NCBI GenBank assembly: GCA_000818095.1
Contig: CP009417.1
Span: forward strand, 1 to 64,000
Length of the DNA stretch: 64,000 bases
DNA from: Jeotgalibacillus malaysiensis
GTDB lineage: Bacteria > Bacillota > Bacilli > Bacillales > Jeotgalibacillaceae
Reading direction: 5' to 3'
Positions 3,941-55,829 of the stretch are shown in pieces (the stretch's first letter is position 1; each line of letters opens with the position of its first letter). The position numbers and the translations under genes were made by a program. A model generated the notes under the pieces. It did no database searches, was not told the DNA's origin, and was given only the letters and a program-made list of their open reading frames with translations.

Positions 3941-4046
3941 GCTATCCCCTCCTTTTTTGTTTTAATTAGTATACGAAAAGGAAATACTTGTCATTACGTG
4001 AAGTTGTTTAACCATTGTCAATACGTGTCTTCATTCGTTTATTTAA

Positions 4047-4078
4047 AGCAAAAAAGACCCCATTTGAGGTCTCTTTTA
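4047..4078 (-). terminator. valS terminator
   Basis: AGACCTCAAATGGGGTCTTT stem followed by T6 on the minus strand, eight bases after the valS stop. Confidence 0.85.
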
Positions 4079-4085
4079 CTTTGAT

Positions 4086-6731
4086 TTATTTTAAAAGCTG
4101 GCGGATTTCCTGGATTCTCGTTTCTAAAGACGTTCGTTTTTCCGTGTAGTCATCCAGCTTCTTTTTATGCTCATCGACTATTTTTTGAGGTGCACGGGAC
4201 ACAAAGGATTCATTCGAAAGTTTGTTTTCCACGAATAGGACTTCCTTGTTCATCTTTTCCCACTCATTCTCCAGTCGTTTCAACTCATCTTTATAGTCAA
4301 CCAGTGAATCCATCGGGATAAAGAGCTCAGCCCCGCTGACAACCGCAGTCATCGTATCTTCTGGTTTATCCAATGAAGTTTCTACCACAACCTCATTAGC
4401 TCCTGCTAAAGATTTGACAACTTCCCTTCCCTTTTCAAAGGATGCTTTGAAACCGTCATTCTTCGCAAGTAGATACAGGGATATTTTCTTGCTCATCGGA
4501 GCATTTACTTCTGCCCGGATGTTACGTACTGCTGTAACCACTTCCACGAGACGTTGCATCTCTTCTTCCGCTTCTGCATCCTCAAAGCGTCCATCCACAG
4601 AACCCCATGGAGCGATGACAATGGATTCTTCAACGTGCGGGAGACTCTGCCATATCTCCTCTGTAATAAATGGCATAAATGGATGCAATAGCTTCAGCGA
4701 TTCCTTCAATACATGAAGTAAAATTTGCTTTGTGGTCTCTTTTTCTTCTTCGTTTTCACCGAAGAGCGTAATTTTGGACAGTTCTACATACCAATCGCAA
4801 AAGTCCTCCCAAATAAACTGATTGATACGTTTCCCCGCTTCCCCTAGCTCATACTTCTCCATCAAGGATGTAACGGATGTGATGGTTTGGTTGAGTCGGT
4901 GTAAAATCCATTTGTCCTGGATGTGATGAATGCTGTGAAGGTCTAATTCAGGGTTTTTCACGTCATGAATGTATGGCATCGCAAAGCGAGAAGCATTCCA
5001 TACCTTGTTCGCAAAGTTTCTGCTTGCAATCACTTTGTCCATGCTCAACTTTAAGTCATTCCCCGGTGATGTCCCGGTAGATAGCGTGTATCGGAGAGCA
5101 TCTGCCCCATATTCCGCAATGATATCCATTGGGTCAATGCCATTCCCTAATGATTTACTCATTTTCCTCCCCTGCTCATCCCGTACAAGTCCATGAATGA
5201 CAACGTTTTTAAACGGTGTTTTTTCCGTAAATTCCAATCCCTGAAAAATCATTCGAGAAACCCAGAAAAAGATGATATCGTACCCTGTTACAAGAACGCT
5301 ATTAGGGTAATAACGAAGATAATCAGGGTTTGTTTTATCAGGGAAACCTAACGTAGAGAATGCCCACAATGCGGAACTGAACCATGTATCAAGAACGTCC
5401 TCATCCTGTCTCCAGTTCTCCTTGTCGGATGGAGCAGATTCTCCTACATACACCTCTCCTGTTTCGATATGATACCAGGCAGGAATCTGATGTCCCCACC
5501 ATAATTGACGACTGATACACCAGTCACGAATGTTTTCCATCCAACGAAGATACGTGTTCTCAAATCGAGCAGGTGTGAATTCAACCTTATTCTCCGACTG
5601 CTGAGCGTCAACCGCCTTCGCCGCAAGAGAATCCATTTTAACAAACCATTGCTTCGAGAGATATGGTTCCACGATACTGCCATTTCGTTCTGAATGCCCT
5701 ACAGAATGAAGGTGCTCTTCGACCTTTACTAGTAATCCATCCCGCTCCAAGTCTTCTTTCAGCTTCTTACGGCATTCAAATCGGTCAAGCCCTTTATATT
5801 GACCAGCGTGTTGGTTCATCGTTCCATCTTCATTCATGACAATCAGTGGCGTAAGCTTATGACGCATCCCAACCTCAAAATCATTCGGGTCGTGTGCTGG
5901 TGTGATTTTGACTGCCCCTGAACCAAACTCTTTCTCTACATATTCATCTGCAATGACCGGGATTTTATAGTCCGTCATCGGAATCGTCACTTGCTTCCCG
6001 ATAAAGGAGGCATAGCGTTCATCTTCGGGATGGACAGCAATCGCTTTGTCCCCAAATAACGTTTCTGGTCGTGTTGTTGCGACCTCAATGAAGCCAGTTC
6101 CATCAGAAAGGGGATAACGAATGTGGTAGAGAGCTCCCTTCACTTCTTCATGGATGACTTCAATGTCAGAAAGTGCGGTCTTGGCAACGGTGTCCCAGTT
6201 GATGATGTACTCCCCACGATAAATCAACCCTTTTTCGTAAAGGTCAACAAATACTTTCCGAACGGCTTTCGAAAGTCCTTCATCCAGGGTGAACCGTTCC
6301 CTTGAGTAATCAAGTCCCAATCCCAACTTCGACCACTGTTCACGAATTTGTTTTTTATACTCTTCAGCCCATTTCCATGTCACTTTTAGAAAGGCTTCTC
6401 TGCCTAAATGATAACGGGAGACGCCCTCCTCTTTCAATTTACCTTCAACTTTCGTCTGTGTCGCAATTCCAGCATGGTCACTCCCGGGCAACCAAAGAAC
6501 ATCATAGCCCTGCATTCGCTTCATACGGGTCAAAATGTCTTGAATCGTCGTATCCCATGCATGTCCTAAGTGTAAGCGACCGGTTACATTGGGCGGGGGA
6601 ATCAAAATGGAGTAAGGCTCTTTTTCAGAGGTAGCGTCTGCTTTGAAGTATCCTTTCTCTACCCACCATTCATAACGTCCTTCTTGGATTAAATGCGGGT
6701 CATAGGTTGATGCCATTTCTTTCCTCGGCAT
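4086..6731 (-). CDS. valS: Valyl-tRNA synthetase (class I)
   Basis: 881 aa, the usual length of Bacillus ValRS. It charges tRNA-Val with valine in the cytosol. Visible in order: [15 protein letters not shown] with the HIGH-type motif at about residues 45-60; the editing (CP1) domain at about 190-400 with [10 protein letters not shown]; the signature KMSKSLGNG near 520; the anticodon-binding domain; and a C-terminal coiled coil from about 815. No key residue is missing, so it should be active. The ATG chosen follows AAAGGATGATAATT; an upstream ATG is too close to the Shine-Dalgarno. It is controlled by the T-box at 6745-7010. A full T-box-regulated valS on what looks like accessory DNA would be a second copy in the cell. 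Confidence 0.97.
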
Positions 6732-6744
6732 AATTATCATCCTT

Positions 6745-7010
6745 TCTTTTTAAATACAAAAAGCCCTCTCATCGAAAAGGACGAGAGGGCTTATCGTGGT
6801 ACCACCTTTATTTTCAACACCAAAGAAACCTGTTCTCAGGTGATGACTTCATTGGATAACGGAATCTCCGTTCATTCTTACTTACAAATGGTTCAGAATG
6901 AATGCTCCGAGGCGACATTCCGGATAGTATCACATAGAAAGACTCACACCATCGTCTTCCCTCTCTGAAATGTACACTTATCCGTACTCTTCCTCATCAA
7001 TGCATGCTTT
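6745..7010 (-). promoter_or_regulatory. T-box riboswitch leader of valS
   Basis: On the minus strand the conserved T-box sequence AAAGGTGGTACCACG sits just before a strong terminator hairpin (AAGCCCTCTCGTCC...GAGAGGGCTT plus T5). Further upstream are the Stem I hallmarks GAGGAAGAGTA and CAGAGAGGGAAGACG. A bulge reading GAATGTCGC could hold a GUC valine specifier. Uncharged tRNA-Val would bind, stabilise the antiterminator and turn valS on. Confidence 0.93.
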
Positions 7011-7021
7011 ATATAGGTCTT

Positions 7022-7049
7022 ATTATAAGGTAGATTTTCGATTGGTCAA
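7022..7049 (-). promoter_or_regulatory. valS promoter
   Basis: TTGACC, a 16-bp spacer, then TATAAT on the minus strand, directly upstream of the T-box Stem I. This is a standard sigma-A promoter without the palindromic operator seen elsewhere. Confidence 0.8.
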
Positions 7050-7073
7050 CCGATTTGAATGACAAAGATGAAA

Positions 7074-7100
7074 ACAAAAAAGACCCCTTTAGAGGTCTCT
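7074..7100 (-). terminator. Terminator of the 7102 gene
   Basis: AGACCTCTAAAGGGGTCTTT stem with T6 on the minus strand. Confidence 0.8.
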
Positions 7101-7101
7101 T

Positions 7102-7302
7102 TTATTTTTGCAGATTGAGTAGAGTTTGTAATTGGTCAGCTTTCAAGTAGACCTTTCCAACTTCATCATCCTGAACTTCTTCATTGAACTGAACAATCCA
7201 TCCATTGCCGTTGTCAAATACTTTGACCAGCGTATCCATAGATTCTTCATCCGTTGAATCCAGTGGTGTGTAACCCATTTTCAGATAATCCGCTTTTTTC
7301 AT
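7102..7302 (-). CDS. Hypothetical protein, 66 aa
   Basis: Family not recognised. A small, mixed alpha/beta, acidic protein. The start follows GGGAG. It lies 17 bp after the 7529 gene and both share one terminator, so they form a two-gene unit under the hairpin leader at 7541-7582. Confidence 0.55.
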   Translation of the reverse strand: MKKADYLKMGYTPLDSTDEESMDTLVKVFDNGNGWIVQFNEEVQDDEVGKVYLKADQLQTLLNLQK

Positions 7303-7319
7303 TGTGAATCGTCTCCCTT

Positions 7320-7529
7320 TTAGCGTTTTTTTACGACTTTATCCTTTTCCGTGATGTATCCAATCGGCATGCCGTCTTTTAAGACTAGTTTTGATGGACT
7401 GTTTAATCGTTTATCAAAACCGTAGTCTTTCACGGTAACGTTACCTAGTTCCGTCACACTCTGAATTTCACGAATCGTTTCCATACTTGCTTCAAATGAA
7501 CCTCGATGCTCTCTGAAATACATTGCCAT
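7320..7529 (-). CDS. Hypothetical protein, 69 aa
   Basis: Family not recognised. A small basic protein; the C-terminal half (LVLKDGMPIGYITEKDKVV) has the look of a small beta-barrel. The start is the ATG eleven bases after AAAGGAG; a second ATG two codons on is possible. It is the first gene of the 7529-7102 unit and has the window's conserved leader. Confidence 0.55.
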   Translation of the reverse strand: MAMYFREHRGSFEASMETIREIQSVTELGNVTVKDYGFDKRLNSPSKLVLKDGMPIGYITEKDKVVKKR

Positions 7530-7538
7530 GATAATCAA

Positions 7539-7582
7539 TCTCCTTTGAAATAAATTGGTTCAATACCTATTTTTAATTGACC
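7539..7582 (-). promoter_or_regulatory. Hairpin plus TTTATTTCAAAGGAG leader
   Basis: GGTCAAT...ATTGAACC (7557-7582) forms a hairpin with one bulge on the minus strand, followed directly by AATTTATTTCAAAGGAG and the 7529 start. Confidence 0.55.
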
Positions 7583-7633
7583 ATTTATTCTACTCGTTAA
7601 AGAGTATTCTTATCACATAGGCATGGCTTCTTT

Positions 7634-7900
7634 TCAGCTTAAAGTTCTCGACTTCTTGCTGAGGTGCTTCCAAAGCTTTTCCTTATCACGTTCAGGCTCA
7701 TGGAAGACCTCTTTTAGCTCTCCGTCTATCCATATCTCTACATATGGTGTATGCGTCATATAATGAAAATCGCCATTCTCAACGATTTTCGCATACATGC
7801 TTGCGACCGCTTTGACATCTATTGTAACTAAACGGTTTACACTGTGATTCTCCCCCGTTGATAGAATGAAAATAGGAGTCGATTTACATTTGTTGTTCAT
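7634..7900 (-). CDS. Hypothetical protein, 88 aa
   Basis: Family not recognised. Mixed alpha/beta with a Lys/Arg-rich C-terminus (LWKHLSKKSRTLS). The ATG chosen lies nine bases after GGAGG; the earlier in-frame GTG overlaps the Shine-Dalgarno itself. It stands alone between two leaders. Confidence 0.55.
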   Translation of the reverse strand: MNNKCKSTPIFILSTGENHSVNRLVTIDVKAVASMYAKIVENGDFHYMTHTPYVEIWIDGELKEVFHEPERDKEKLWKHLSKKSRTLS

Positions 7901-7993
7901 AGTGAACACCTCCGGTTGAAATTTGGATTTATTTTTGTGGTGAGTTATTGTTTTGTTAGAGAGTAGAGTTTGAAGGTATAGGAGGAAATTACT

Positions 7994-8290
7994 GTGGCGA
8001 AAGAAAACAATTTAGACCCTGAAACACGACGTTTATATGAATTAAGGGAAAAGCAAATTCGGGATGAGTTGACCCGAATGGGCGGAGCTAAAGAGGAAGG
8101 CGAATATCAAAAAGCAATGGATATTGCCAAGCGATTACTTGATAGAGGAATGTCTGCTGACGAAATCGCTGAAGTAACCGGTCTGAGCCAGGAAGATATT
8201 GAAAATGTGAAATGTTTTTTTATGCTGGCTATTGTTCCTAGTAGAAGATGGAAGTTCCAATATATTGGAGGAGATAATCATGATGGATAA
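7994..8290 (+). CDS. Stand-alone Rpn C-terminal-tail protein, copy 1
   Basis: 98 aa, GTG start after GGAGGAAA. Residues 8-70 (DPETRRLYELREKQIRDEL, then AMDIAKRLLDRGMSADEIA and VTGLSQEDI) match the C-terminal oligomerisation tail of Rpn/PD-(D/E)XK 'recombination-promoting nuclease' proteins. The whole N-terminal nuclease domain is absent. After LSQEDIENVK the sequence turns into an unrelated 25-residue end, as if the reading frame was lost. The gene overlaps copy 2 by 11 bp. Known Rpn genes make an internal short form that acts as antitoxin to the nuclease; this protein could do the same in trans. A dead fragment is the alternative. Confidence 0.7.
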   Translation: MAKENNLDPETRRLYELREKQIRDELTRMGGAKEEGEYQKAMDIAKRLLDRGMSADEIAEVTGLSQEDIENVKCFFMLAIVPSRRWKFQYIGGDNHDG

Positions 8291-8552
8291 CGTAATTAAA
8301 CAAGCAGATGAAAAATTGATTCGATTAAGCTCAGACCCTGAGACACGACGTTTATATGAATTAAGGGAAAAGCAAATTCGAGATGAGTTAAGCAATCATG
8401 AAGGTGCCAAACAAGAAGGTATGGAGATAAAGACCAGGGAGTTTGTTGAGACTCTTCTTTCAGATGGTCTTCCATTGGAAAAAGTGGCTGAGTATGCGAA
8501 GATTTCGATTGAAGAAGTAAAGAAAATCCAAAACAGTTTAAATGAAAACTAA
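8280..8552 (+). CDS. Stand-alone Rpn C-terminal-tail protein, copy 2
   Basis: 90 aa. It shares DPETRRLYELREKQIRDEL with copy 1, identical over 19 residues, and ends with a helical GLPLEKVAEYAKISIEEVKKI module typical of Rpn tails. It starts at ATGATG after GGAGGAGATAATC; the overlap with copy 1 suggests coupled translation. DNA identity between the copies over the shared motif is high, which points to a recent tandem duplication. It has a good terminator. No nuclease domain lies in either flank. Confidence 0.7.
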   Translation: MMDNVIKQADEKLIRLSSDPETRRLYELREKQIRDELSNHEGAKQEGMEIKTREFVETLLSDGLPLEKVAEYAKISIEEVKKIQNSLNEN

Positions 8553-8557
8553 ATGCT

Positions 8558-8592
8558 AGTAGAAAGAGACCTATTATAAAGGTCTCTTTTTA
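8558..8592. terminator. Bidirectional terminator between the Rpn-tail genes and doc
   Basis: AAAGAGACCTATTATAAAGGTCTCTTT hairpin with A- and T-runs on both sides, placed between convergent genes. Confidence 0.85.
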
Positions 8593-8985
8593 GTTTCCTA
8601 CATATACACTATTCTTTTTCAACAGCTCAACCACATCCGCAAACGACTTCTTCTTTGTGACAAAGTCTACGACGAGGTCTGCCGCTACATCTGCAGGTAG
8701 GACGCACTTCTGGTCGTTGATATACAAGAAATACATCACACAACCAAGAGCTGTCCGTTTATTCCCATTGAAAAAGACATGGTTCTTTGCAATCGACTCA
8801 AACAATGCCGTTGCCTTATCAAACACATTAGGATAGAGCGGGTCACCAAACATCGTCTGGAACGGGCGTTCAATGGCACTCTCTAACAATCCCATCTCTT
8901 TCACTCCGACCATTTCACCCGGTGAGTAATCGGCAATCATCCGTTGGTTAATCACAAAAGCGAGTTCTTTTGATAATTTCTTCAT
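8590..8985 (-). CDS. doc: Doc-family toxin (Fic fold)
   Basis: 131 aa, the usual Doc length. The motif HVFFNGNKRTA (about residues 68-78) is the Doc version of the Fic HxFx(D/N)(G/A)NKR motif; ATP-dependent phosphorylation of EF-Tu is known for P1 Doc. Supporting Doc features are the ESAIERPFQTMFGDPLYP segment and FDKATALFESIAKNH. All key residues are present, so it should be toxic unless neutralised. Its ATG overlaps the stop of the 37-codon gene upstream (ATGA). Confidence 0.93.
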   Translation of the reverse strand: MKKLSKELAFVINQRMIADYSPGEMVGVKEMGLLESAIERPFQTMFGDPLYPNVFDKATALFESIAKNHVFFNGNKRTALGCVMYFLYINDQKCVLPADVAADLVVDFVTKKKSFADVVELLKKNSVYVGN

Positions 8986-9095
8986 CGTTCTACCAGCTCC
9001 TTAAATGCGTCGTTGTATAATCCCTGAATGACCTTCCACTCTTCTTCTCTAAGTGTGTTTTCTGTTTCAATGATTTCTTCCTGGTTATTTTCCAT
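8982..9095 (-). CDS. 37-aa protein between phd and doc
   Basis: The reading frame runs ATG to TGA with 37 codons (begins MENNQEEIIETENTLREEEW, ends FKELVER), predicted as one acidic helix. It overlaps the antitoxin gene by 11 bp (ATGGAAAATAA) and doc by 4 bp (ATGA), so all three would be translationally coupled. Phd neutralises Doc through a C-terminal helix that binds the toxin. This peptide may be that helix encoded separately, or it may be reached by frameshift from phd. Confidence 0.6.
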   Translation of the reverse strand: MENNQEEIIETENTLREEEWKVIQGLYNDAFKELVER

Positions 9096-9486
9096 GTTGT
9101 GATTCCTCCTCTTTGTTAAATCCGTATGATGCAACGAGTTCTTCGGTTGTTAGTGTCTGTTCCACGCTTGGATTGCTCATACTGTGAGTGAAGTGTAATT
9201 TAAATTCGTCGGAACTTTTCATCTGGATATACGTCCTTGTCACAAGGTTCCCGTTCTCTTCCTCGACTAAGACTTTCACCTTGACACCATTTGTTAAGCT
9301 GAATACTTCTCCTGGTGATTTTCGACCGTCGAGTAAGTTCTCGTAATCGTCATACGACATCAACACCGCAACAGGCTCATTGTTCTTCACAACAATTTTT
9401 GTCACCTGTTTTTCAATCAGGCTTGAAAGTTCTTTTTTAAATTCACTTAAACTAATCATCACGTCTTTTAATTTCGGGAATTGCAT
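9085..9486 (-). CDS. phd: Phd/YefM-family antitoxin
   Basis: 133 aa. Residues 7-55 show the Phd/YefM fold (ISLSEFKKELSSLIEKQ, then KIVVKNNEPVAVLMSYDDYE), which binds DNA and represses its own operon. It is longer than classical Phd (about 73 aa); the extra 70 residues form a different, partly beta domain. The ATG after AAAGGATGATTGTA was chosen over an upstream ATG with no spacing. It is the first gene of the phd, 37-codon gene, doc operon. Confidence 0.85.
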   Translation of the reverse strand: MQFPKLKDVMISLSEFKKELSSLIEKQVTKIVVKNNEPVAVLMSYDDYENLLDGRKSPGEVFSLTNGVKVKVLVEEENGNLVTRTYIQMKSSDEFKLHFTHSMSNPSVEQTLTTEELVASYGFNKEEESQHGK

Positions 9487-9496
9487 TACAATCATC

Positions 9497-9530
9497 CTTT
9501 CGCTTACGTTGTATATCTATTATACCATGA
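9497..9530 (-). promoter_or_regulatory. phd/doc promoter and possible operator
   Basis: Extended -10 TGGTATAAT on the minus strand inside an imperfect inverted repeat TTGTATC...GATATACAA, a plausible Phd autoregulation site. Confidence 0.5.
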
Positions 9531-9588
9531 CAGATACAAGAATGGTATTAAATTTAGCTCTATATTTGATATTAAATTTATATATAAA

Positions 9589-9613
9589 TAAAAAGACCCT
9601 TTAAGGGTCTCTT
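9589..9613 (-). terminator. Terminator of the 9613 gene
   Basis: AGACCCTTAAAGGGTCTTT stem and T-run on the minus strand. Confidence 0.8.
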
Positions 9614-9957
9614 CATGCTTGTTCCTGTTTAATCATTTCTTCTACCTCATTGAGATAACAAAGTGTCATATCTCCTTGTCTCTCAATGTCACCCAAAAGG
9701 TCATGAAGTGCCTCCATGTTTTTTTGTTTAAACGAAAACGGTGTTTTGAGTTTATACGTGTGCAAAGCGTCCTCAATATATTCAAAGTCACCAAAACGGG
9801 CTTCAATCGTTTTGAAGTAGTCTAGGTTTTCCCGGAATCTCTCTCCTAGCTTCAGATAGGATTCTTTCTGTTCTCCCCTGCTCCATCGTGCTTTTCTTTC
9901 TGCCCATTTTACACCTTTGTTGCAAATCGCTTTGACTTCTTCCCTATGAAGTACCAT
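9613..9957 (-). CDS. Hypothetical helical protein, 114 aa
   Basis: Family not recognised. Mostly helical with a basic N-terminal half (KWAERKARWSRGEQKES) and an acidic end. The start is the ATG after AAAGGAGCGGGTACAA. It is monocistronic with the conserved hairpin leader (9970-9996), an AGCATAAGATAAG element upstream and its own terminator. Confidence 0.6.
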   Translation of the reverse strand: MVLHREEVKAICNKGVKWAERKARWSRGEQKESYLKLGERFRENLDYFKTIEARFGDFEYIEDALHTYKLKTPFSFKQKNMEALHDLLGDIERQGDMTLCYLNEVEEMIKQEQA

Positions 9958-9968
9958 TTGTACCCGCT

Positions 9969-9996
9969 CCTTTGAAATAAATGGTGATTGAATCAC
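9969..9996 (-). promoter_or_regulatory. Hairpin plus ATTTATTTCAAAGGAG leader
   Basis: GTGATTCAATCAC forms a 5-bp hairpin (9984-9996) directly before CATTTATTTCAAAGGAG on the minus strand. Confidence 0.6.
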
Positions 9997-10059
9997 TACA
10001 GTTTCTGTTTATCTCTTATCTTATGCTTTTCGGAAACCTGCATAACTCCAGAGATTTAC

Positions 10060-10088
10060 AAAGACCCTCCTGGTTAGGGGGTCTTTGT
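10060..10088 (-). terminator. Terminator of the alarmone-hydrolase operon
   Basis: AAAGACCCCCTAACCAGGAGGGTCTTT stem on the minus strand at the end of the 10074 gene. Confidence 0.75.
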
Positions 10089-10304
10089 ATAGTTGTCAGC
10101 AAATCTCTTGGCTAATGCCTTTTCTACAAAACGTTGTGTAATCCTGAATTCATCTTCCGGCAACATCTGAGGGTCTGCACCTAAAAACCGTTCCCTCACA
10201 ATCAATAGATTTTCATAGGACTCTTCCCGTTCTAGCTCCAAAAAAGCTTTCACAAGCAAGTCGTCCGGAAACTTTTCTTTATCTTCACTCACTAATTTAC
10301 GCAT
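10074..10304 (-). CDS. Hypothetical protein, 76 aa, third gene of the operon
   Basis: Family not recognised. Helical and charged. It starts at the ATG nine bases after AAAGGAG and overlaps the nuclease-like gene by 8 bp. It is the last of three overlapping genes (alarmone hydrolase-like, nuclease-like, this one), so it is probably a partner of that system. Confidence 0.6.
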   Translation of the reverse strand: MRKLVSEDKEKFPDDLLVKAFLELEREESYENLLIVRERFLGADPQMLPEDEFRITQRFVEKALAKRFADNYTKTP

Positions 10305-10953
10305 GCTTATCATCTCCTTTATAACGGAATTCGACCTTCCGACCAACTTTACGAGATTCCACCCAGTCTTCGTTCCATTTCTCCCGTAGTGTTGCCATTA
10401 CAGAAGGTCGTGGTGTTGCATAATGCGTCTCGCAGTTCTCCAGGATGTCCTCAATGGTTGTCCACCGTCCACGACGGCTGTAGCGAAGATAGGAGCGGAT
10501 GATATCAATGGTGTTGCTGTAATCGGTTTTTGATTCTCCTGACTTTACGCCCCCAACGAGTTCATGCTGAAACGGTCGAATGATTTTCCGTAGCGATAAA
10601 TGTCCCTTTTTCTTTGTCGCCAAATGATTAAACCGTGCCGGAACTTCCACAGTTACAACACCCTCTCGTACATAGAGAAGTCCAATCTTGTTTTGACGCA
10701 AAATCATATCAACAGAACGAGGTAATCCGCCTTTTCGGTACGGAACCGCAATGTATACATATTGTGCGGAATGCATGGCTCTGAGTGCCTGGTCAATGAC
10801 TTTGAAGTTCAAGGTCGTCTTCATTTCCACAATAATATTTACGGCTCCCTGAATGCCCAACACATCATATATCCCGACTTCCCCATAGACTTCCGAACAG
10901 CCTTTATCGAGTAGGAATTGCTTGACCGGTTCATAAAGTTCACTTTCCTTCAT
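10297..10953 (-). CDS. PD-(D/E)XK nuclease-like protein
   Basis: 218 aa. Residues 15-75 show a restriction-endonuclease-like core: GEVGIYDVLGI (Asp), then IIVEMKTT (Glu-x-Lys) and a helix with Gln (DQALRAMHSAQYVYIAVP). The C-terminal 80 residues, including RGRWTTIEDILENCE, look like a winged-helix DNA-binding region. It could cut or only bind DNA; no family name is certain. The start is the ATG after AAGGAGAATCAA, overlapping the upstream gene by 14 bp. Confidence 0.7.
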   Translation of the reverse strand: MKESELYEPVKQFLLDKGCSEVYGEVGIYDVLGIQGAVNIIVEMKTTLNFKVIDQALRAMHSAQYVYIAVPYRKGGLPRSVDMILRQNKIGLLYVREGVVTVEVPARFNHLATKKKGHLSLRKIIRPFQHELVGGVKSGESKTDYSNTIDIIRSYLRYSRRGRWTTIEDILENCETHYATPRPSVMATLREKWNEDWVESRKVGRKVEFRYKGDDKHA

Positions 10954-11539
10954 TTGATTCTCCTTGAATAAGTGCTTCAAAATTAGTAACGAGTGACTCA
11001 TACGTGTCAAAATAGAGCGGGAAATCACAGTGGTTCTTGTTGAAGAGATTATCTGCAGGGTTTCGCATCTTATTCGCTACTCCTTTAAAGTACCAGAGCT
11101 GTTCTTCTTTCCCTCGCTTAAAGTGAGTGAATAAGGTCTCCCCTTCCTGTTGATAGGCTTTTACCATTGAACGAAGATTGTCGAGTTTGTCTGCTACAAT
11201 CAGGGCACGTACTTCAATCGGTGCCTCCGCAATCCAGTCAATCGTATGTTGCTTTCGCTCTTCCCATGAATCGTCTTTATTTTCGGTGTTCCCGGCAACA
11301 ATTTCTGCTACCCGCTTCCCGAATAACTTTTCAATCTCTTCAAGTGTTGCGTCTGTATCTTCTACTGTGTCGTGGAGATACCCTGCCATAACGACTTCCT
11401 CATCAAACCCTGCATCCTTTAAGATACCAGCTACTCGAATCGGGTGATTGAACATGGGTGTACCATCGGTTTTCCGTGTTTGTCCTTCATGTTTTTCTTT
11501 TCCGTATTTCAGTGCTTGAGTCAATCTGGTGTTCGACAT
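10940..11539 (-). CDS. HD-domain hydrolase, small alarmone hydrolase-like
   Basis: 199 aa. Residues 8-135 match the hydrolase domain of RelA/SpoT and MESH1: HEGQTRKTDGTPMFNHP, then VVMAGYLHDTVEDTDAT (HD plus ED) and ADKLDNL. This domain removes pyrophosphate from (p)ppGpp. No synthetase, TGS or ACT domain follows, so it would be hydrolase only. Use of another nucleotide is possible. It is the first gene of a three-gene overlapping operon with a nuclease-like protein. The -35 box of its promoter is part of the TTGACTATTGTCAA palindrome at 11589. ATG chosen; an upstream GTG is too close to GGAG. Confidence 0.85.
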   Translation of the reverse strand: MSNTRLTQALKYGKEKHEGQTRKTDGTPMFNHPIRVAGILKDAGFDEEVVMAGYLHDTVEDTDATLEEIEKLFGKRVAEIVAGNTENKDDSWEERKQHTIDWIAEAPIEVRALIVADKLDNLRSMVKAYQQEGETLFTHFKRGKEEQLWYFKGVANKMRNPADNLFNKNHCDFPLYFDTYESLVTNFEALIQGESNEGK

Positions 11540-11588
11540 GTGTGTCACGCTCCTTTTTTCGTTCTATACTTATATTCTAAGATTAATA

Positions 11589-11602
11589 TTGACTATTGTC
11601 AA
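11589..11602. promoter_or_regulatory. Palindromic operator between divergent promoters
   Basis: TTGACTATTGTCAA serves as -35 in both directions. Minus: TTGACA, 17 bp, TAGAAT toward the alarmone hydrolase. Plus: TTGACT, 17 bp, TTAAAA toward the GRDP-like gene. Confidence 0.75.
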
Positions 11603-11652
11603 ATAATCGAGTTAAAATGGAAGTAGAAAGCAACCCGAAAAGGAGTGATAGT

Positions 11653-12702
11653 ATGTTTTTGTTAGAAATTTTCGTTATCGTCTGTATGTTATACACTCTC
11701 TTCCGACTCATCAAAGGAATGGTACGTTTCCTTCGTGGGGATAGTAAAATCCCTTATATCAAAGAAAAAACAGTGGTTCAAGCAACTGAATCTGATTATC
11801 TTCGACTGCGTGAAATGGAGGATGTTGACCTGGTAAGAGATACGAAACCCTTTGCAAAAATCATTGCAAAAGAACTGGAAGAATCTTTGCCACTGTCCTA
11901 TGAGGTAAATATTTTCAATCGCATGATGACAGAAGTAACACCGGATTATCGGGAAGTTATCAGGTTAATTCATGAACAGAAACGTTTTTTAATGATGACG
12001 AAAGTGATGAAGCAGGTTCCGATGTTTTCAAAAGATGTGGATGAAGTCTGGCATCAAATGCTCATGTTCACCCGTTCTTATGAATCCTTCTGCCAATCCT
12101 TCGCAGGGGAAATGATTCATCATGAACCGAACCTTTCGGGTGAAGATTCTCCAAATATCCGATTCCATTTTGATTTGATGTATACACTTTTATTTGAAGA
12201 AACGAAAAAACATAGTGAGAAAGTATGGGGACATCGATTTACAGAGAAACCAACACAAGACTACATTGATTCATTGAAAGAAATGAATCACCGAAGCATG
12301 TGGAAACTGTTCAACCTCAACTCTGAATCTTCTCAGGAAGTGGCGAAAGAATTAATGGAGCTCATTAAAGAACAGATTCGGGAGTCTGAATATAAATCAA
12401 ATGAGCCTTCTTTCATTGAGACAAGAGCTAAAATGCAACGCCTTCGAAAGATTCGTCGGAGTCAATCCACCGATGCCGCACTATTTGTGACACCTGCTTT
12501 TATCTTTTGGTCAGCGAGCGGAACGGATAGCGAATATCAATCGAATTTAGGCTATGCAAATTCAACTGCGAACTCAACAACATCTTCCGGATGCTCAAGT
12601 GTTCATTCCCATTCGTCAGATAGCGACAGCGGTGGAAGCTCATCTTGTAGTTCCGGAGGCTCTTCTTGTGGCGGAGGATGCGGTGGTGGATGTGGCAGTT
12701 AA
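11653..12702 (+). CDS. GRDP-like protein with Ser/Gly/Cys-rich tail
   Basis: 349 aa. An N-terminal membrane segment (about residues 2-22) precedes a soluble domain. Residues 125-190 (MFSKDVDEVWHQMLMFTRSY, then HHEPN) match the glycine-rich-domain-protein (GRDP) family signature D-x-x-W-H...H, whose biochemical role is unclear. The last 65 residues are Ser/Gly/Cys-rich (SSCGGGCGGGCGS), a low-complexity end found on some membrane-anchored bacterial proteins. The start is the ATG after AGGAGTGATAGT. It is expressed divergently from the alarmone hydrolase operon through the shared palindrome. Confidence 0.7.
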   Translation: MFLLEIFVIVCMLYTLFRLIKGMVRFLRGDSKIPYIKEKTVVQATESDYLRLREMEDVDLVRDTKPFAKIIAKELEESLPLSYEVNIFNRMMTEVTPDYREVIRLIHEQKRFLMMTKVMKQVPMFSKDVDEVWHQMLMFTRSYESFCQSFAGEMIHHEPNLSGEDSPNIRFHFDLMYTLLFEETKKHSEKVWGHRFTEKPTQDYIDSLKEMNHRSMWKLFNLNSESSQEVAKELMELIKEQIRESEYKSNEPSFIETRAKMQRLRKIRRSQSTDAALFVTPAFIFWSASGTDSEYQSNLGYANSTANSTTSSGCSSVHSHSSDSDSGGSSSCSSGGSSCGGGCGGGCGS

Positions 12703-12732
12703 TGGAGAGCTCATGAGCTCTCTTTTTTTATA
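12703..12732 (+). terminator. Terminator of the GRDP-like gene
   Basis: GGAGAGCTCATGAGCTCTC stem followed by T7. Confidence 0.85.
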
Positions 12733-12918
12733 AAAAACGTTATGACTATCCTCACGCTTATCTCAGATTTTTTATTTCGTCAGACCTTCCCACTGTCATT
12801 TCAAAATACTTTTTCGAAAGAATAATTCAATATTCAGACAACTATCATAGAGGGATAGATTTTCAAGGAAATCTCAACGAGCGAAACTGCTTGAACACAT
12901 GACAAAGGGGGAATGACC

Positions 12919-17004: not shown

Positions 17005-17844
17005 TTATGGATTGACGTTACCGAATAACTGGTCGAATGCCGGTTTGTTTTTCGGTTTTCCAGGCTCATAAATAGCAAAGACGACCTTCTTAAAGTGCCC
17101 CTTGTATCGTTCATCCTCAAGTGCTTCCTGGAAGAGTCGAGCCACTTCTGTCGAAGAGTTTCCGAATACCCCACAACCAAACGCACCTAAAACAATGACG
17201 TCATACTGGTTCGCACGGGCAACTGCCAATACCTTACGGATACGGGCACGCATCTTTTGCGAGATGACATTCCGCTGTGAAGGGTTCCCTTTCATCACGA
17301 CAGATGCATTGACCGCCGGTGAGGTAATCATGGAAACAAGATAAGGTGTCTCTTCAAAGGCACCACCGTCCTCACGAAAGACAGGAACGTCCGGTGAATA
17401 GACCATATAGTCGGAGTAGAATCCCCATTTTTTACGGTTAAAATCGTACATTTCTTTCATCTGAGCAATCGTTGGATACAAGCCTGAAGAACGGGCAAGC
17501 GTTTCTTCCTGGGCACGTGCACCAGACAAGAATCCACCTCCGGGATGTTTGGCTGACGCAAAGTTCAAACAAACGACCTTGTGACCTTCGTTAATAAGTC
17601 GCTTTGACGCCTCCAATGTTGTTTCCCCTGTCACTTCAAACACAGTTTCCTTTTGCTCTCGCACAGGTGTCATCTGCTCATCAATGCGTGTGACTTCCTT
17701 AGGTGTGTAGAGCTTGCTTGAAATCACGGAAGACTCAACCGCTTCTTTAATATTGACCTCTTTTCCGCTTGGAGCGGTATAGGTTCCTCGTTGGATAATG
17801 TCCAATGCTTCTTGTCCCCACTGGGCATAGGTTTGTCGATTCAT
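17005..17844 (-). CDS. PARG-like macrodomain protein (TIGR02452 family)
   Basis: 279 aa. The N-terminal region before about residue 85 is the family's helical part. The macrodomain carries the bacterial poly(ADP-ribose) glycohydrolase signature: NFASAKHPGGGFLSGARAQE followed by E (about residues 94-115), where GGG-x6-QEE holds the catalytic Glu pair. GAFGCGVFGN near 215 is the phosphate-binding loop. It should remove ADP-ribose from proteins or nucleic acids. The start follows GAGGCGATACC. Its promoter uses the palindrome at 17897. It may share a transcript with the zinc-ribbon gene. Confidence 0.88.
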   Translation of the reverse strand: MNRQTYAQWGQEALDIIQRGTYTAPSGKEVNIKEAVESSVISSKLYTPKEVTRIDEQMTPVREQKETVFEVTGETTLEASKRLINEGHKVVCLNFASAKHPGGGFLSGARAQEETLARSSGLYPTIAQMKEMYDFNRKKWGFYSDYMVYSPDVPVFREDGGAFEETPYLVSMITSPAVNASVVMKGNPSQRNVISQKMRARIRKVLAVARANQYDVIVLGAFGCGVFGNSSTEVARLFQEALEDERYKGHFKKVVFAIYEPGKPKNKPAFDQLFGNVNP

Positions 17845-21980: not shown

Positions 21981-22700
21981 TCAAATAAAGAAATCGTCCA
22001 TGGCGTCATCAATCTCATCTTGTGCGATGCCAATATAAATCTTTGTGACCCGCTCCGATGAATGGTTGAAGATATCCTGGAGCATGGCAATGTCTTTGTT
22101 CTTTTGATAGAAATGGTAGCCGAAACTCTTTCGTAGGGAATGCGTTCCAACATTCTCCATTCCCAGTACTTCTCCTGCTTCTTTCATGATGCGGTAAGCT
22201 TGAACACGGCTAATCGGCTCCTTCGTCTTTTTCGATGGGAATAAATAGTCAGATTCAGTCATCCCGTATGTATAGTCTTCAATAATGTTCCGGAGCATGA
22301 TATTTAATCGAAAACGCTTGGTCTTCCCTGTCTTTTCCTCCCGAATGGCAAGGTACTCCTTATTGCGTACATGACGAACCTGCAGTTTTAACAAATCCCC
22401 AATCCGGACACCTACATTAATGCCCATAACAAAAAGGAAATAATCACGTTTAGAGCGGCTTTCAAAGTAAGAGCGAATATCTTCGAGTCCTTCTTTTGAC
22501 CGTATTGGTTGTACCTTTTGCTGATTCCCGACTTTCATGAGAGATTGATAGTCACTTCCCTCACGGAGCGGGAGTGTTCCTTTCTTTCGCTTCTCGTTCA
22601 ACATTTTAATTTTTTGTTTTACGCCAGGCTTGCCAAATCGTTCAATAAGTTTTCCCAGCTCTTCTTCTGTTAGTTTGACGTGCTCTGCAACTTGTCTCAT
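21981..22700 (-). CDS. Short tyrosine recombinase/integrase
   Basis: 239 aa. The catalytic domain (about 70-235) is complete: Arg in VGVRIGDLL, Lys in REEKTGKTKR, His-x-x-Arg in THSLRKSFG, His in FNHSSERV and Tyr in KIYIGI. Instead of the usual core-binding domain it has only about 65 residues with a helix-turn-helix look (MRQVAEHVKLTEEELGKLIE). The start is the ATG seven bases after AAGGGGG; the longer frame has no ribosome site. Three 33-bp repeats lie beyond its 3' end. Confidence 0.88.
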   Translation of the reverse strand: MRQVAEHVKLTEEELGKLIERFGKPGVKQKIKMLNEKRKKGTLPLREGSDYQSLMKVGNQQKVQPIRSKEGLEDIRSYFESRSKRDYFLFVMGINVGVRIGDLLKLQVRHVRNKEYLAIREEKTGKTKRFRLNIMLRNIIEDYTYGMTESDYLFPSKKTKEPISRVQAYRIMKEAGEVLGMENVGTHSLRKSFGYHFYQKNKDIAMLQDIFNHSSERVTKIYIGIAQDEIDDAMDDFFI

Positions 22701-22791
22701 GTCTGCCCCCTTATGAAACAAATGATATGTTTTGATACATAACCCCATTATACATGAATCAGGAAACAGCTGACCATTTGTTTCTATGGTT

Positions 22792-22820
22792 GTCAGTGCT
22801 GTTCTTTCCACGTAGAATAA
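22792..22820 (+). promoter_or_regulatory. Promoter of the 22849 gene
   Basis: TTGTCA, 17-bp spacer, TAGAAT; the start codon follows 30 bp later. Confidence 0.55.
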
Positions 22821-22848
22821 AGATATTGTAGAAAATAGGGGTGCGAGC

Positions 22849-23232
22849 ATGTACACACAATACTTAATATCGAACAGAAAAAGCAAGGTTGAAAAAGAAT
22901 TTGAACTGATGTCGGCTGTTTTAAAAGATTCTCCAATGATGGAATCATTTGCTGAAAAGGCGAAAGGAATGGAAAATCAGCGTATCTACCGATTTCCAAA
23001 TGGACGTGGTGCTTCCATTGTTAAAGGATTCTTTAGTTTCGACCGGTGGGAAATTGCAGAGATTCAATTTGAGGGAAAGGCTCCTCGACGTAAAATGCCG
23101 AAGAAAAAACGTTTGAGAAAGAAATGGGAAAAGAATTACCTTCGCTATGACCTGGTGGATGGCATCTACCGTGTTGATACAGAAGAAGAGATTCGAAGAG
23201 AACTTGTTAGAATCATGAACCGCTCTGTGTGA
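22849..23232 (+). CDS. Hypothetical basic protein, 127 aa
   Basis: Family not recognised. Residues 80-97 are very basic (KAPRRKMPKKKRLRKKWEK), which suits RNA or DNA binding. The N-terminal part is mixed alpha/beta. The start follows GGGGTGCGAGC. It is divergent from the integrase and has its own terminator. Confidence 0.6.
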   Translation: MYTQYLISNRKSKVEKEFELMSAVLKDSPMMESFAEKAKGMENQRIYRFPNGRGASIVKGFFSFDRWEIAEIQFEGKAPRRKMPKKKRLRKKWEKNYLRYDLVDGIYRVDTEEEIRRELVRIMNRSV

Positions 23233-43646: not shown

Positions 43647-43970
43647 TTACGCATATACGTCTTCTGGTGTCACAACGCCAAATAGCGTATAGACTTGTTC
43701 CCAGAACATGATGCGTTCTTCTTCCTCATCCTCATTCCACTCTGGCTCATCTACCCATACACGCCCTTCTGCATCAAGTGCAATCGCAATGCTGTGTCGG
43801 TAGTTGCCACCATCACGGTAATCCATTTCAATAATCAAGACGTCCTCTTCCTTTACAACCGGATTTTCTCCATAATCCATTTCCTCTGAGAATGACGTGA
43901 CCTTTTGTTTAAAGTCCTCAGCAGTAACTCCTGTGATATGTGTGCGGCTGTACAAGTTGATTAATTCCAT
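43647..43970 (-). CDS. Hypothetical acidic protein, 107 aa
   Basis: Family not recognised. Beta-rich middle (EEDVLIIEMDYRDGGNYRHS) and an acidic EWNEDEEEE run. The start follows AAGGGAGCGATTACGC. A TGAATAGCATAAAGG element is upstream (about 44026-44040). Confidence 0.6.
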   Translation of the reverse strand: MELINLYSRTHITGVTAEDFKQKVTSFSEEMDYGENPVVKEEDVLIIEMDYRDGGNYRHSIAIALDAEGRVWVDEPEWNEDEEEERIMFWEQVYTLFGVVTPEDVYA

Positions 43971-44076
43971 GCGTAATCGCTCCCTTTGCTAGTTGATTCA
44001 CCGAATACCTTCTTCGTGTGTTACCTTTATGCTATTCAGTGACACGATTGAATATAAAAGCCAGATATCAACAAAC

Positions 44077-45093
44077 TCAATTCAACATCTGTTTGGCAAC
44101 ATGCAAACTCACCTCAGCATTGTTCACAAGCTCATCTTCTTTTTTCTTTTCCACCTCTTGAAAATACGCCTCGACAGACCGTCTAGCTTCGCTTCGAAGT
44201 CGTTCAGGAAGTCTTTCATCCTTTGCAATGCCTTCCATTACATCGATGGCATAAGGCATTGGAGAAGATTCTTGCAGTGTTACGGCTTTATCCATCACGC
44301 TTGAAATAGGTGAATGGGAGTCTCCGAAAATTACATAAGGATTCTGTTTCAAAATGTGTGCGGTTGTTTCAGGGATTTCATTCGTAATTAACGCTTTGAT
44401 TTCTTCTGTTAACGATTCCACTTCTTTTTCTTTTGCAAGACGCTCTTTCGACAACTTCTTCAGTTTCTTTTCAAACTTTACAATCTTTGAAACGTCTCCT
44501 TCTTCTTTCGATTGGTCAAGTTTTGCCTGTTTTTTCGCCATTTTCTCTAAATACTCTCGCTCTGAATCTTCCAGAGCTTTTACCAGGTTATCTAACTTTT
44601 TCGTCTTACGTAAGAATAATTCAGGTTCTGTGACGAATCGCCCTGACTCTGCAAAATTGCCTGTAGGATGAAGGGGGATGGTTTTGGCAATCTGTTTAAA
44701 ACGCTCTTCTTCTTCTTTAGAAAGTTTCGAAGAACACGAAAGAGCGACGAGAATTAGAAGAAAATGAGGGATAATTAAGAAAGAGGTGCCAAAAAGGTAA
44801 GAAGCAACCATCCCAGGCACATAGAATACCATTCCTACGAACACGAGTAATGCTAGAAACAACAAGGGAGCATTTTTATAAAGTTTCGATTGACTATAAT
44901 CTTTATAAACGGAAGAAAATGCTTCCATGTCCTGATGACGAAGTACGTACCCGTCTCCCGTCACATATTCTTTCTTTCTATCACGATACCAATTGATAAG
45001 AAATACGACCGTTCCAAATAGGGCTCCTACAAACGTATATAGAAGGTAACTTACCTCAAATGTCCCATTTGTAGCCAATAAAATATCTACCAT
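44077..45093 (-). CDS. Membrane protein with coiled coil, 338 aa (paralogue of 45108)
   Basis: Membrane segments at about 13-35, 76-97 and 100-120, then a long cytoplasmic coiled coil (about 160-250; KKLKKLSKERLAKEKEVESL) and a helical end (ERLPERLRSEARRSVEAYFQ). The next gene upstream has the same layout, including the ERxPExxRxxA motif in the tail. No known family. The third gene of an operon driven by the palindrome at 46708. Confidence 0.7.
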   Translation of the reverse strand: MVDILLATNGTFEVSYLLYTFVGALFGTVVFLINWYRDRKKEYVTGDGYVLRHQDMEAFSSVYKDYSQSKLYKNAPLLFLALLVFVGMVFYVPGMVASYLFGTSFLIIPHFLLILVALSCSSKLSKEEEERFKQIAKTIPLHPTGNFAESGRFVTEPELFLRKTKKLDNLVKALEDSEREYLEKMAKKQAKLDQSKEEGDVSKIVKFEKKLKKLSKERLAKEKEVESLTEEIKALITNEIPETTAHILKQNPYVIFGDSHSPISSVMDKAVTLQESSPMPYAIDVMEGIAKDERLPERLRSEARRSVEAYFQEVEKKKEDELVNNAEVSLHVAKQMLN

Positions 45094-45107
45094 ACCATCA
45101 TCTCCTT

Positions 45108-46022
45108 TTAGATAAATTTCTTCGCCGTATCAAGCTCAATCTGAGCATCTTGAAGACGAGCTTGTTCTTCAGTTTTAGATTCTTCCTGCCATTGGGCTTC
45201 AAGCGTAATTTGGGCATCCTCACGCATACTCTCTGGAAGGCTAGTGTCATTCGCAATCCGTTGGAGCACTTGAATGTGATGCGGAACAGCAGTTCTTTTT
45301 AGGGTTTGTCCTTTTTGTTTGACGATGTCAGCAGTCAAAACGGGAATGTCATCGGAGAGAAGTTGTTGAAGGCGTTTGTTATGAAGGATAACCTGATTTG
45401 AATTTTCTCGAATTCCGCTCGTGGCTCTATCCATTCTTAATTGCTCCCACTCAAGATTCTCCTTGCCCTTATCAACCGCTTGTCCGTATTCAATTTCTGC
45501 AAGCTCAAACGCATGCGTTGCATCTTTTAGTCTTTTTTCCGCTTGCATCAGCTTCTCTTCAACTTCCAAGTACTTTTCAGGGTTGGAAATATACTGAACA
45601 ACACCCGTAGTTGGATTTTTAATTTCAAAGAGAACACTCTTTGAGAATTCTTCCGTCTCCCGGTCAAACTCCTCCATTCCCTTTTTGATGACGGCAATCG
45701 TAATAAGCATCACAATTGCAATTAATGAGGATGATAACCATGACACGGAAAGCGGTATTTCTAATCCAGCTAGAGCCATGTACATGAAGATAAATAGAAA
45801 AATGAGTAATCCAGGCATCACCCCACCGAATCCCCCATAAACACTTTCTTTAATCTTCGTTTTATAACTAGGGAAAAGCTCGCTCAATTGTTTAGGGGTC
45901 ACTTTATACCCATCTTTTGATGTATACCCGCTTCTCAATAATTTCTTTTCAGCTTTTAATAAGTACTGCCATGTTGCTACAAGAAAAACAACATAGATGA
46001 GTAGTTCAATTTTCGATGACAT
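45108..46022 (-). CDS. Membrane protein with coiled coil, 304 aa (paralogue of 44077)
   Basis: Membrane segments at about 5-20, 65-85 and 93-112; a coiled coil at about 150-220; then a tail with SLPESMREDAQITLEAQWQE, matching the tail of the 44077 protein. Both have the PVLTADIVKQ / PETTAHILKQNP turn before the tail. Tandem duplication with divergence. Function unknown; a scaffold at the membrane is possible. Confidence 0.7.
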   Translation of the reverse strand: MSSKIELLIYVVFLVATWQYLLKAEKKLLRSGYTSKDGYKVTPKQLSELFPSYKTKIKESVYGGFGGVMPGLLIFLFIFMYMALAGLEIPLSVSWLSSSLIAIVMLITIAVIKKGMEEFDRETEEFSKSVLFEIKNPTTGVVQYISNPEKYLEVEEKLMQAEKRLKDATHAFELAEIEYGQAVDKGKENLEWEQLRMDRATSGIRENSNQVILHNKRLQQLLSDDIPVLTADIVKQKGQTLKRTAVPHHIQVLQRIANDTSLPESMREDAQITLEAQWQEESKTEEQARLQDAQIELDTAKKFI

Positions 46023-53016: not shown

Positions 53017-54900
53017 TCAGAAGGTTTCTTCTGTGTCTTCTGCTGTCACGGTTTTCTTTGTTGAAGCAACGTCTGATTCAACAGTGTTCAATAATTCCGT
53101 TGTTACAATGTCTGCAACTTCTTCTTTTTGAACTTCTGCTTGAATCGATTCTTCCACTGTCTCAGGGTCTTTCATTAACTCATCGAGTTCATCTTCCATG
53201 ATAGTCTCTTTTTCAAGAAGGGCTTCTGCCACTCGGACTACCTTGTCCCAATGTTCCTTCATGAGTTCTTCTGTCTCGTTGTAAAGACGAGCTGAAAGTT
53301 CAGAAGCATGTTTAACCATGACCTCTTTATCGACTCCAAGGATTTCAAGATTCAACATCCCGATTTCCTTTGTCATACCGTAAGTTGAAATCATTTGGCG
53401 AATCGTTTGCGTTGCCTGTTCAATATCACCGCTTGCCCCAGTCGTAACGAGCTTTTCATTTCCGAACAAGAGAAGTTCAGCAATTCGACCGGCATACGAT
53501 ACCTTGACATTGTTTTCCATTTCTTCAATGGTGTGGAGTCCCATCTTCTTAGGAGAGAAGAATGTGATACCTCCTGCACCTGTAGTCGAAGCAAGAATCG
53601 TCACTCGGTCTACATCCATTCCAGTCTCAAGTAATTTCCCGATAACAGCGTGACCGGCTTCGTGATATGCCACAAGCTTGAGAACATCTTCATCACGGTC
53701 TTTCTGTGAGTCTTTCTTGAAGTGCCCTTTCAAAATCTTGCGGTCATACGCTTCGGTGAAACATTCCATATCAATTTTCTCTTTTCCAGAGTCAACGGAT
53801 AAGATTGCCGCACTGTTCACGATACTCTCAATATCCGCACCACTGAATCCAATCCATTGTTTTGCAAGAGCCATGAAGTCCACATCGTCCGCAAACGACT
53901 TGTTCTTCGTGTGAACCTTGATGATTTCAAGGCGTTCCTCTGCTGTGTAAGGAATCGGTACTTTAACCTGCATATCGAAACGTCCTGGACGAATCAACGC
54001 TTTGTCAAGCATCTCCAAACGGTTCGTTGTTGCAATCACCAAAACTCCAGTATCTTCGGCAAACCCGTCCATTTGAGTAAGAAGGGCGTTGATTGTCTGT
54101 GTCGCTTCACTGTTTGTTTCGTTTCCACGTTGACCACCAATTGCATCAATTTCATCAATAAAGATGATACACGGAGCATTCTTTTTCGCTTCTTCAAACA
54201 AAGTACGGATACGTTGTGCTCCAACACCGACGAATTTCTCGATGAAGTCACTACCACTAGCTGAGTAGAACGGTACACCCGCCTCTCCTGCAATGGCTTT
54301 CGCAATCAATGTTTTACCTGTTCCTGGCTCACCATAAAGAATCATCCCTTTTGGCATGCGTGCACCACGTTCCAGATAACGCTTTGGTTCTTTCAAGAAC
54401 GAAACCACATTCTCAACTTCTTCTTTAACTTCTGCATAACCTGCAACGTCAGAGAACTTCACTTTTGGCTTTTTAATGACTTCTCCAGCCTTCGCATTCC
54501 CAACATTCCCTTTCATCATCTTCATATTCATATAGAAGTAGTAGATAACAAAAATGATTAACGCAAGTTGCAAGATTGGTAGAATTGAAGATAAGATGCC
54601 ACCTGATGATGAAGCAGATGTGACCTTCACATCATTTTCAAGAAGTTCTTTCTTGAAGTCATCGTATTCAGGGTGTGTTGTCACAAATTTATCACCGGAT
54701 TTGGTTTCATAAGCGACAATCCCTTGCCCCCGGTCAAGATAAGCAGATTCCACTTTGTCTTTTTGAACTTGTTCCATAAAGGTACTGTACGATTCTTTTT
54801 TAGGTGGTTCGGCATTCGAATACGACATGATGCCGATGAAGAGGATTGCCGGGATAGTAAACGGTGCTGTCTTCTTCAAAAAATGTAAGATTTTTTTCAT
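53017..54900 (-). CDS. ftsH: FtsH-family membrane AAA+ protease
   Basis: 627 aa. Two membrane segments (about 12-28 and 102-120) flank a short outside domain. The AAA+ domain has Walker A GEPGTGKT, Walker [11 protein letters not shown] and the SRH with ALIRPGRFD. The zinc protease domain has AYHEAGHAV (HEXXH). All catalytic residues are intact, so it should degrade membrane and regulatory proteins. As accessory DNA this would be a second FtsH, perhaps forming mixed hexamers with the host one. The ATG was chosen despite a long spacing from AAGGGG; an upstream TTG has no ribosome site. A structured leader precedes it. Confidence 0.93.
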
Positions 54901-54955
54901 AGGATGAACAAAACCCCTTCCGTCAAGTAATATTGTCAATCTGTTGTTTGCTGTT

Positions 54956-55563: not shown

Positions 55564-55829
55564 GTTGAATCACTCCTTTGTTTTTATCTCCCTCTCTTCC
55601 GAAGATTGAGCATTTATATTTGATTGTGTATTTTTTAAATTCGTTTATAAGAAAAGGAACTCTTGTTGTTTTCTGGATGAAATATCTAAGTTGTTTTCTA
55701 ATGATGTTATGTTCCTCATCTTATTACTTATAGTATAATCCAATGTGGTTATGTTGTCAACTATATTTTACTAAATAACTTCAGAAAAAACAAACTATTT
55801 GATATAATAAGAGAAAGGCGGTGGAAGAA

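Follow-up and report, generated by a model that had tools for sequence, protein, structure and literature searches.

Rpn is a DNA-cutting defence protein. In E. coli and C. difficile, an internal translation start yields the antitoxin RpnS from the C-terminal part of the gene for the full-length Rpn (RpnL) (Zhong et al. 2023, PMC10327210). In E. coli, RpnS blocks only its cognate RpnL; the same paper describes rpnS as a gene of its own and rpn genes arranged in tandem (PMC10327210). Here we analyse two overlapping genes (copy 1 and copy 2) from Jeotgalibacillus malaysiensis that encode the tail of Rpn and lack its nuclease part; they lie in a stretch of 64,000 nucleotides, referred to as the window, that forms the start of a 603-kb contig (CP009417.1). 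Our analysis indicates that the pair probably represents two orphan rpnS genes, left over when two or more rpn genes of one Bacillales subfamily lost their nuclease parts, and that both would still be translatable.

Anatomy of the two reading frames

The NCBIfam profile TIGR01784 comprises 273 positions, of which copy 1 matches only 200-272 (E 3.3e-8, 33.7 bits) and copy 2 only 190-273 (E 6.4e-10, 39.3 bits): both scores lie below the full-length cut-off of this profile (52.1 bits) and the N-terminal nuclease part is unmatched, so that neither gene classifies as an Rpn nuclease. An Rpn HMM built here matched the copies at positions 221-299 (copy 1) and 182-300 (copy 2), and a Pfam scan of both returned nothing over the curated cut-off. 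These matches bear out an earlier note on this DNA, which had described two overlapping genes for Rpn tails without a nuclease, and the 19 identical residues and the overlap of 11 bp (8280-8290) reported there were likewise recovered.

Both reading frames (Table 1) are preceded by a ribosome-binding site, with TAGGAGGA directly before GTG 7994 of copy 1 and TTGGAGGAGATAATC directly before ATG 8280 of copy 2. An alternative copy 2 frame is called mechanically from TTG 8232, which is the less likely start because no site like TTGGAGGAGATAATC is present there. The identical residues (DPETRRLYELREKQIRDEL) are encoded by a 57-nt block common to both copies, in which 3 of the 19 codons differ, each synonymously (P about 0.01 to 0.06). 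Judged by its letters, the likeness of this block between the copies is far beyond chance, and the synonymous-only change may be older than the loss of the nuclease parts. As the two tails diverge 3′ of the block, they point to two different rpn genes as sources and not to a simple recent duplication; no orthologous pair of copy 1 and copy 2 was found elsewhere.

Table 1. Features of the rpnS pair and its direct neighbours, with positions given for the window.
Feature	Position	Strand	Remarks
Divergent small hypothetical gene	7634-7909	-	upstream neighbour of the pair
Copy 1 Shine-Dalgarno AGGAGGA	7980..7986	+	followed by GTG 7994; assigned from sequence
Copy 1, orphan rpnS-like ORF, 98 aa	7994..8290	+	GTG start; residues 8-73 are the Rpn C-terminal module
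Block common to copy 2, 57 nt	8014..8070	+	96% identity
Putative deletion junction	8213..8222	+	Rpn homology of copy 1 stops (..IENVK) and that of copy 2 begins (CWLLFL..); from alignment to L025-L027
Leftover in-frame Rpn segment CWLLFLVEDGSSNILEEII 5′ of the copy 2 start	8223..8279	+	includes the internal Shine-Dalgarno GGAGGA
Copy 2, orphan rpnS, 90 aa	8280..8552	+	ATG coincides with the internal start conserved among full-length rpn relatives
Block common to copy 1, 57 nt	8333..8389	+	96% identity
phd-doc toxin-antitoxin pair	8590-9495	-	directly downstream of the rpnS pair

A conserved internal start and a deletion junction

The closest full-length relatives are found in Neobacillus drentensis (L025), Pontibacillus marinus (L026), Bacillus sp. 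(L027), Peribacillus (L028) and Metabacillus (L029 and L030), and all six carry GGAGG about 8 nt before an ATG or TTG that falls exactly at the position of ATG 8280 in copy 2. In an alignment of 36 different full-length rpn genes, almost all of them from Bacillales, the ribosome-binding site ahead of this internal start was scored against 300 shuffles in which synonymous codons were exchanged whilst protein and codon usage were kept. A strong Shine-Dalgarno was present in 31 of the 36 genes (86%) as compared with 23% of the shuffles, and anti-SD pairing energies averaged -8.6 in the genes and -3.5 in the shuffles (lowest of the 300 shuffle means: -5.0), values to be read with the shared ancestry of these genes in mind, which makes them fewer than 36 independent tests. 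Judging from this comparison, the ribosome-binding signal at the internal start is not dictated by the protein that the gene encodes; the sequence signature of the RpnS start, for which the experiments were done in E. coli and C. difficile, is now extended to many rpn genes of the Bacillales. The start of copy 2 coincides exactly with this internal start, and that of copy 1 lies at the corresponding site, with a gap of 11 residues. Both are hence rpnS genes, i.e. the antitoxin half of Rpn, and the tie to the short Rpn forms of E. coli proposed earlier proved right at the level of sequence.

In the AlphaFold model of copy 2 (pLDDT 73), a long helix (residues 20-61) is predicted together with two short ones (66-73 and 77-89), which is the arrangement expected for RpnS, and the model of copy 1 is similar with a disordered end. 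Comparison of copy 2 with RpnA-S (PDB ID: 7TH0) gave E 0.61 by sequence, and 7TH0 was not among the fold matches listed for this moderate model: the fold searches returned generic helix-turn-helix matches only, the best being TrpR-like and resolvase domains with Z up to 6.6, which is below the tool's meaningful level for helical bundles. Such matches, along with the HHpred likeness of RpnS to helix-turn-helix motifs mentioned in PMC10327210, could be taken to mean that the tails have turned into small DNA-binding regulators that use their helix-turn-helix-like C-terminal helices; we regard this as very improbable, given the low Z values, the same resemblance in ordinary RpnS and the failure to identify an operator-like site. 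Going by its homology with RpnS of E. coli, each protein would be expected to dimerise via its long first helix and to block a cognate full-length Rpn.

The Rpn homology of copy 1 stops at about 8212, and its last ~25 residues (CFFMLAIVPSRRWKFQYIGGDNHDG), thought earlier to be an unrelated tail, are in fact CWLLFLVEDGSSNILEEIIM.. read out of frame; this Rpn segment lies 5′ of copy 2 and, in full-length genes, ahead of the internal start. Read in the frame of copy 2, the segment CWLLFLVEDGSSNILEEII before ATG 8280 aligns to (H)CWLLFLKDDVPDYILREVLR of L027 (HCWLLFLKDD..) and also to L025 and L026, and the match to our own profile begins at position 182, about 25 positions 5′ of the internal start. 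Since the end of copy 1 is an out-of-frame version of the Rpn segment that precedes copy 2, a deletion junction can be placed between the two homologies (Table 1). The simplest reading of the sequence is that a deletion fused one rpn tail, at its end, to the interior of a second rpn gene, the nuclease part of which was lost; copy 1 runs straight into the interior of the former gene of copy 2. Upstream of copy 1, no Rpn sequence was found beyond its ribosome-binding site. Given that copy 1 lacks ~11 residues after its start and carries a foreign end of ~25 residues, its folding or binding may be abnormal.

Each ORF retains only the C-terminal module, together with a ribosome-binding site and a start at or next to the natural internal start, and ribosomes presumably still produce both small proteins. 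Translation of copy 2 may be coupled to that of copy 1, because the stop codon of copy 1 ends only 10 nt past the first base of the copy 2 ATG. The same stretch could be plain debris, that is, two untranslated gene fragments that are still open since the deletion is recent: the junction is visible, a foreign frame ends copy 1, RpnL is absent (see below), N-terminal-only and broken rpn fragments are frequent in the order, and a promoter scan around the pair found promoter-like sites no commoner than in shuffles. We judge this quite unlikely in view of the strong ribosome-binding sites at both starts, the match of the copy 2 start to the natural internal one, the ~73 + 90 Rpn codons free of stops and frameshifts, and the synonymous nature of the codon differences in the shared block. 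The decay that the earlier note had named as a rival view gains weight: it explains the junction and the end of copy 1 better, and broken relatives (L070 and L076, see below) speak for it, but it does not account for the good starts kept by both copies.

Search for a cognate nuclease

It had also been proposed that a mobile element carries the free tails as an anti-defence measure against a host Rpn, and that a full-length Rpn should be sought in the host. Searches of the 4.12-Mb host genome (tblastn with copy 2 as query, the TIGR01784 profile and an alignment that represents a second Rpn type) returned no full-length Rpn of either major type but only the two tails, so that no cognate RpnL accompanies them in the same cell. 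A hidden divergent RpnL was rejected as a candidate, as the second Rpn type (alignment A4) likewise finds only the tails, and a weak third TIGR01784 match in the host (L005) turned out to be an unrelated PD-(D/E)XK-like sequence that is not Rpn-like. None of 11 genomes of the same genus gave any Rpn match (0/11), nor did any match the DNA of 6900-12800 (0/11). Copy 2 matched none of 50,697 phage records, and searching IMG/VR contigs with the alignment revealed no relative; the phage matches of copy 1 were very weak or marginal, for example to a YhgA-like transposase and to short PHROGs of unknown function, and plasmid matches were mostly to full-length Rpn. A phage-borne anti-defence origin was rejected on these grounds, and with no full-length Rpn found in the host the earlier proposal is unsupported and stands as a minority view. 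As the genome contains no RpnL, both proteins would be idle today, save for a cognate RpnL brought in by some other element.

A rival reading is that free RpnS is kept under selection as trans-acting immunity, an anti-addiction or anti-defence antitoxin neutralising the RpnL of incoming plasmids, integrative elements or neighbours. A selected anti-Rpn role of this kind is possible: both copies have retained an open frame, a good ribosome-binding site and a natural start, intact orphans that lack the nuclease and begin just 5′ of the internal start are also known from genomes G244, G340 and G183 (see below), and a phd-doc toxin-antitoxin pair adjoins the copies. The cognate-only blocking by E. 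coli RpnS (PMC10327210) can be read for and against this role: two different tails would cover two RpnLs, and the protective value therefore hinges on meeting the same RpnL. We nevertheless consider such immunity unlikely, as the tails are absent from all 11 congeners, copy 2 is without a match in phages or IMG/VR and copy 1 has only very weak ones in phages, the end of copy 1 is foreign, and like orphan tails of the same subfamily are broken by a frame break (L070) or an in-frame stop (L076). Rather unlikely, too, is its more specific form, in which an Rpn-free genome keeps two free RpnS as standing immunity, a transferable anti-Rpn antitoxin made by nuclease stripping at the internal start of captured rpn genes. 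Should orphan RpnS be active, these genes would represent ready-made inhibitors of Rpn defence.

The surroundings of the pair hold further features. Within the phd-doc pair, a small ORF (8982-9134) lies between antitoxin and toxin, and similar terminator-like repeats (AAAGAGACC...GGTCTCTTT) stand between genes at 4045-4082, 7071-7108, 8562-8591 and 9588-9616, the copies at 4045 and 7071 being 89% identical over 38 nt. A complete valyl-tRNA synthetase gene (valS, 4086-6740, minus strand) has a counterpart on the other contig of the genome (G000:C1:2161095) that is 74% identical to it over the N-terminal 200 residues compared, and a valS search of the 11 congeners gave one match each. Given this second valS, the contig of the window (603 kb) could represent a second replicon; a plasmid search with the ValRS of the window found no related replicon. 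The region from valS to 55 kb is rich in genes lacking a Pfam match and may be an island. The window also contains two tyrosine recombinases (21981-22886 and 55821-56849), a protein with a microbial-type PARG (ADP-ribose glycohydrolase) domain (17005-17844, minus strand) and an FtsH-type AAA protease (53017-54939, minus strand) with otherwise unannotated neighbours.

Free tails in the Bacillales and comparison with known systems

An Rpn match was present in 121 of 397 genomes of the order, among which short tails score low, and nuclease-less tails appear to be common in the Bacillales on the evidence of these sequences, either as a dedicated rpnS after rpnL or as orphans, intact or broken. Among the matches listed, the first setting comprises a full-length rpn with a separate tail gene directly 3′ of it (L068, L105, L106, L107 and L108). 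In L106 (G025:C15, about 43877-45362) two tandem overlapping tails follow the full-length Rpn: these are 87-aa rpnS-like ORFs that begin inside the out-of-frame end of the tail before them, an arrangement very similar to that of the pair in the window. The second setting, again among the matches listed, comprises tails that have no nuclease of their own and are either intact or broken, and it is here that the window pair belongs. Intact orphans among these matches start just 5′ of the internal start in L098 (G244), L103 (G340) and L114 (G183); G244 is without any other Rpn match, and G340 and G183 carry other rpn genes. Broken orphan tails are represented by L070, which has a frame break and stems from a Peribacillus-type genome that carries other rpn genes (G091), and by L076, which has an in-frame stop and lies on an Aneurinibacillus plasmid. 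These cases indicate that the antitoxin half of Rpn repeatedly outlives the loss of the nuclease half in the Bacillales.

Comparison with E. coli RpnS (PMC10327210; RpnA-S 7TH0) reveals that the window pair shares the C-terminal Rpn module, with a start that is internal in full-length genes and has a ribosome-binding site of its own; going by the moderate models, it may also share the long first helix with two short helices. It differs in that the start lies further upstream, giving an RpnS of ~90 residues against 49, and in that the genes stand alone in tandem in a genome without RpnL. Separate rpnS genes that follow rpnL, such as E. coli ypaA, which is a second RpnE-S (PMC10327210), or those of the first Bacillales setting, are equally nuclease-less tail genes with their own start, but they follow an intact rpnL, which the window pair does not. 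The full-length Rpn of L026 (53% over the RpnS part), L025 and L027 belong to the same subfamily and have the internal start and ribosome-binding site at the position of copy 2, whilst retaining the whole PD-(D/E)XK nuclease domain. The pair can also be compared with the orphan or broken tails L098, L114, L103, L070 and L076, which likewise consist of the tail only and start just upstream of the internal start; in contrast to the window pair, these are single copies, two of them broken, and three of their genomes hold other rpn genes. The pair probably belongs to a kind of gene already known, here in an unusual setting, and not to a new system.
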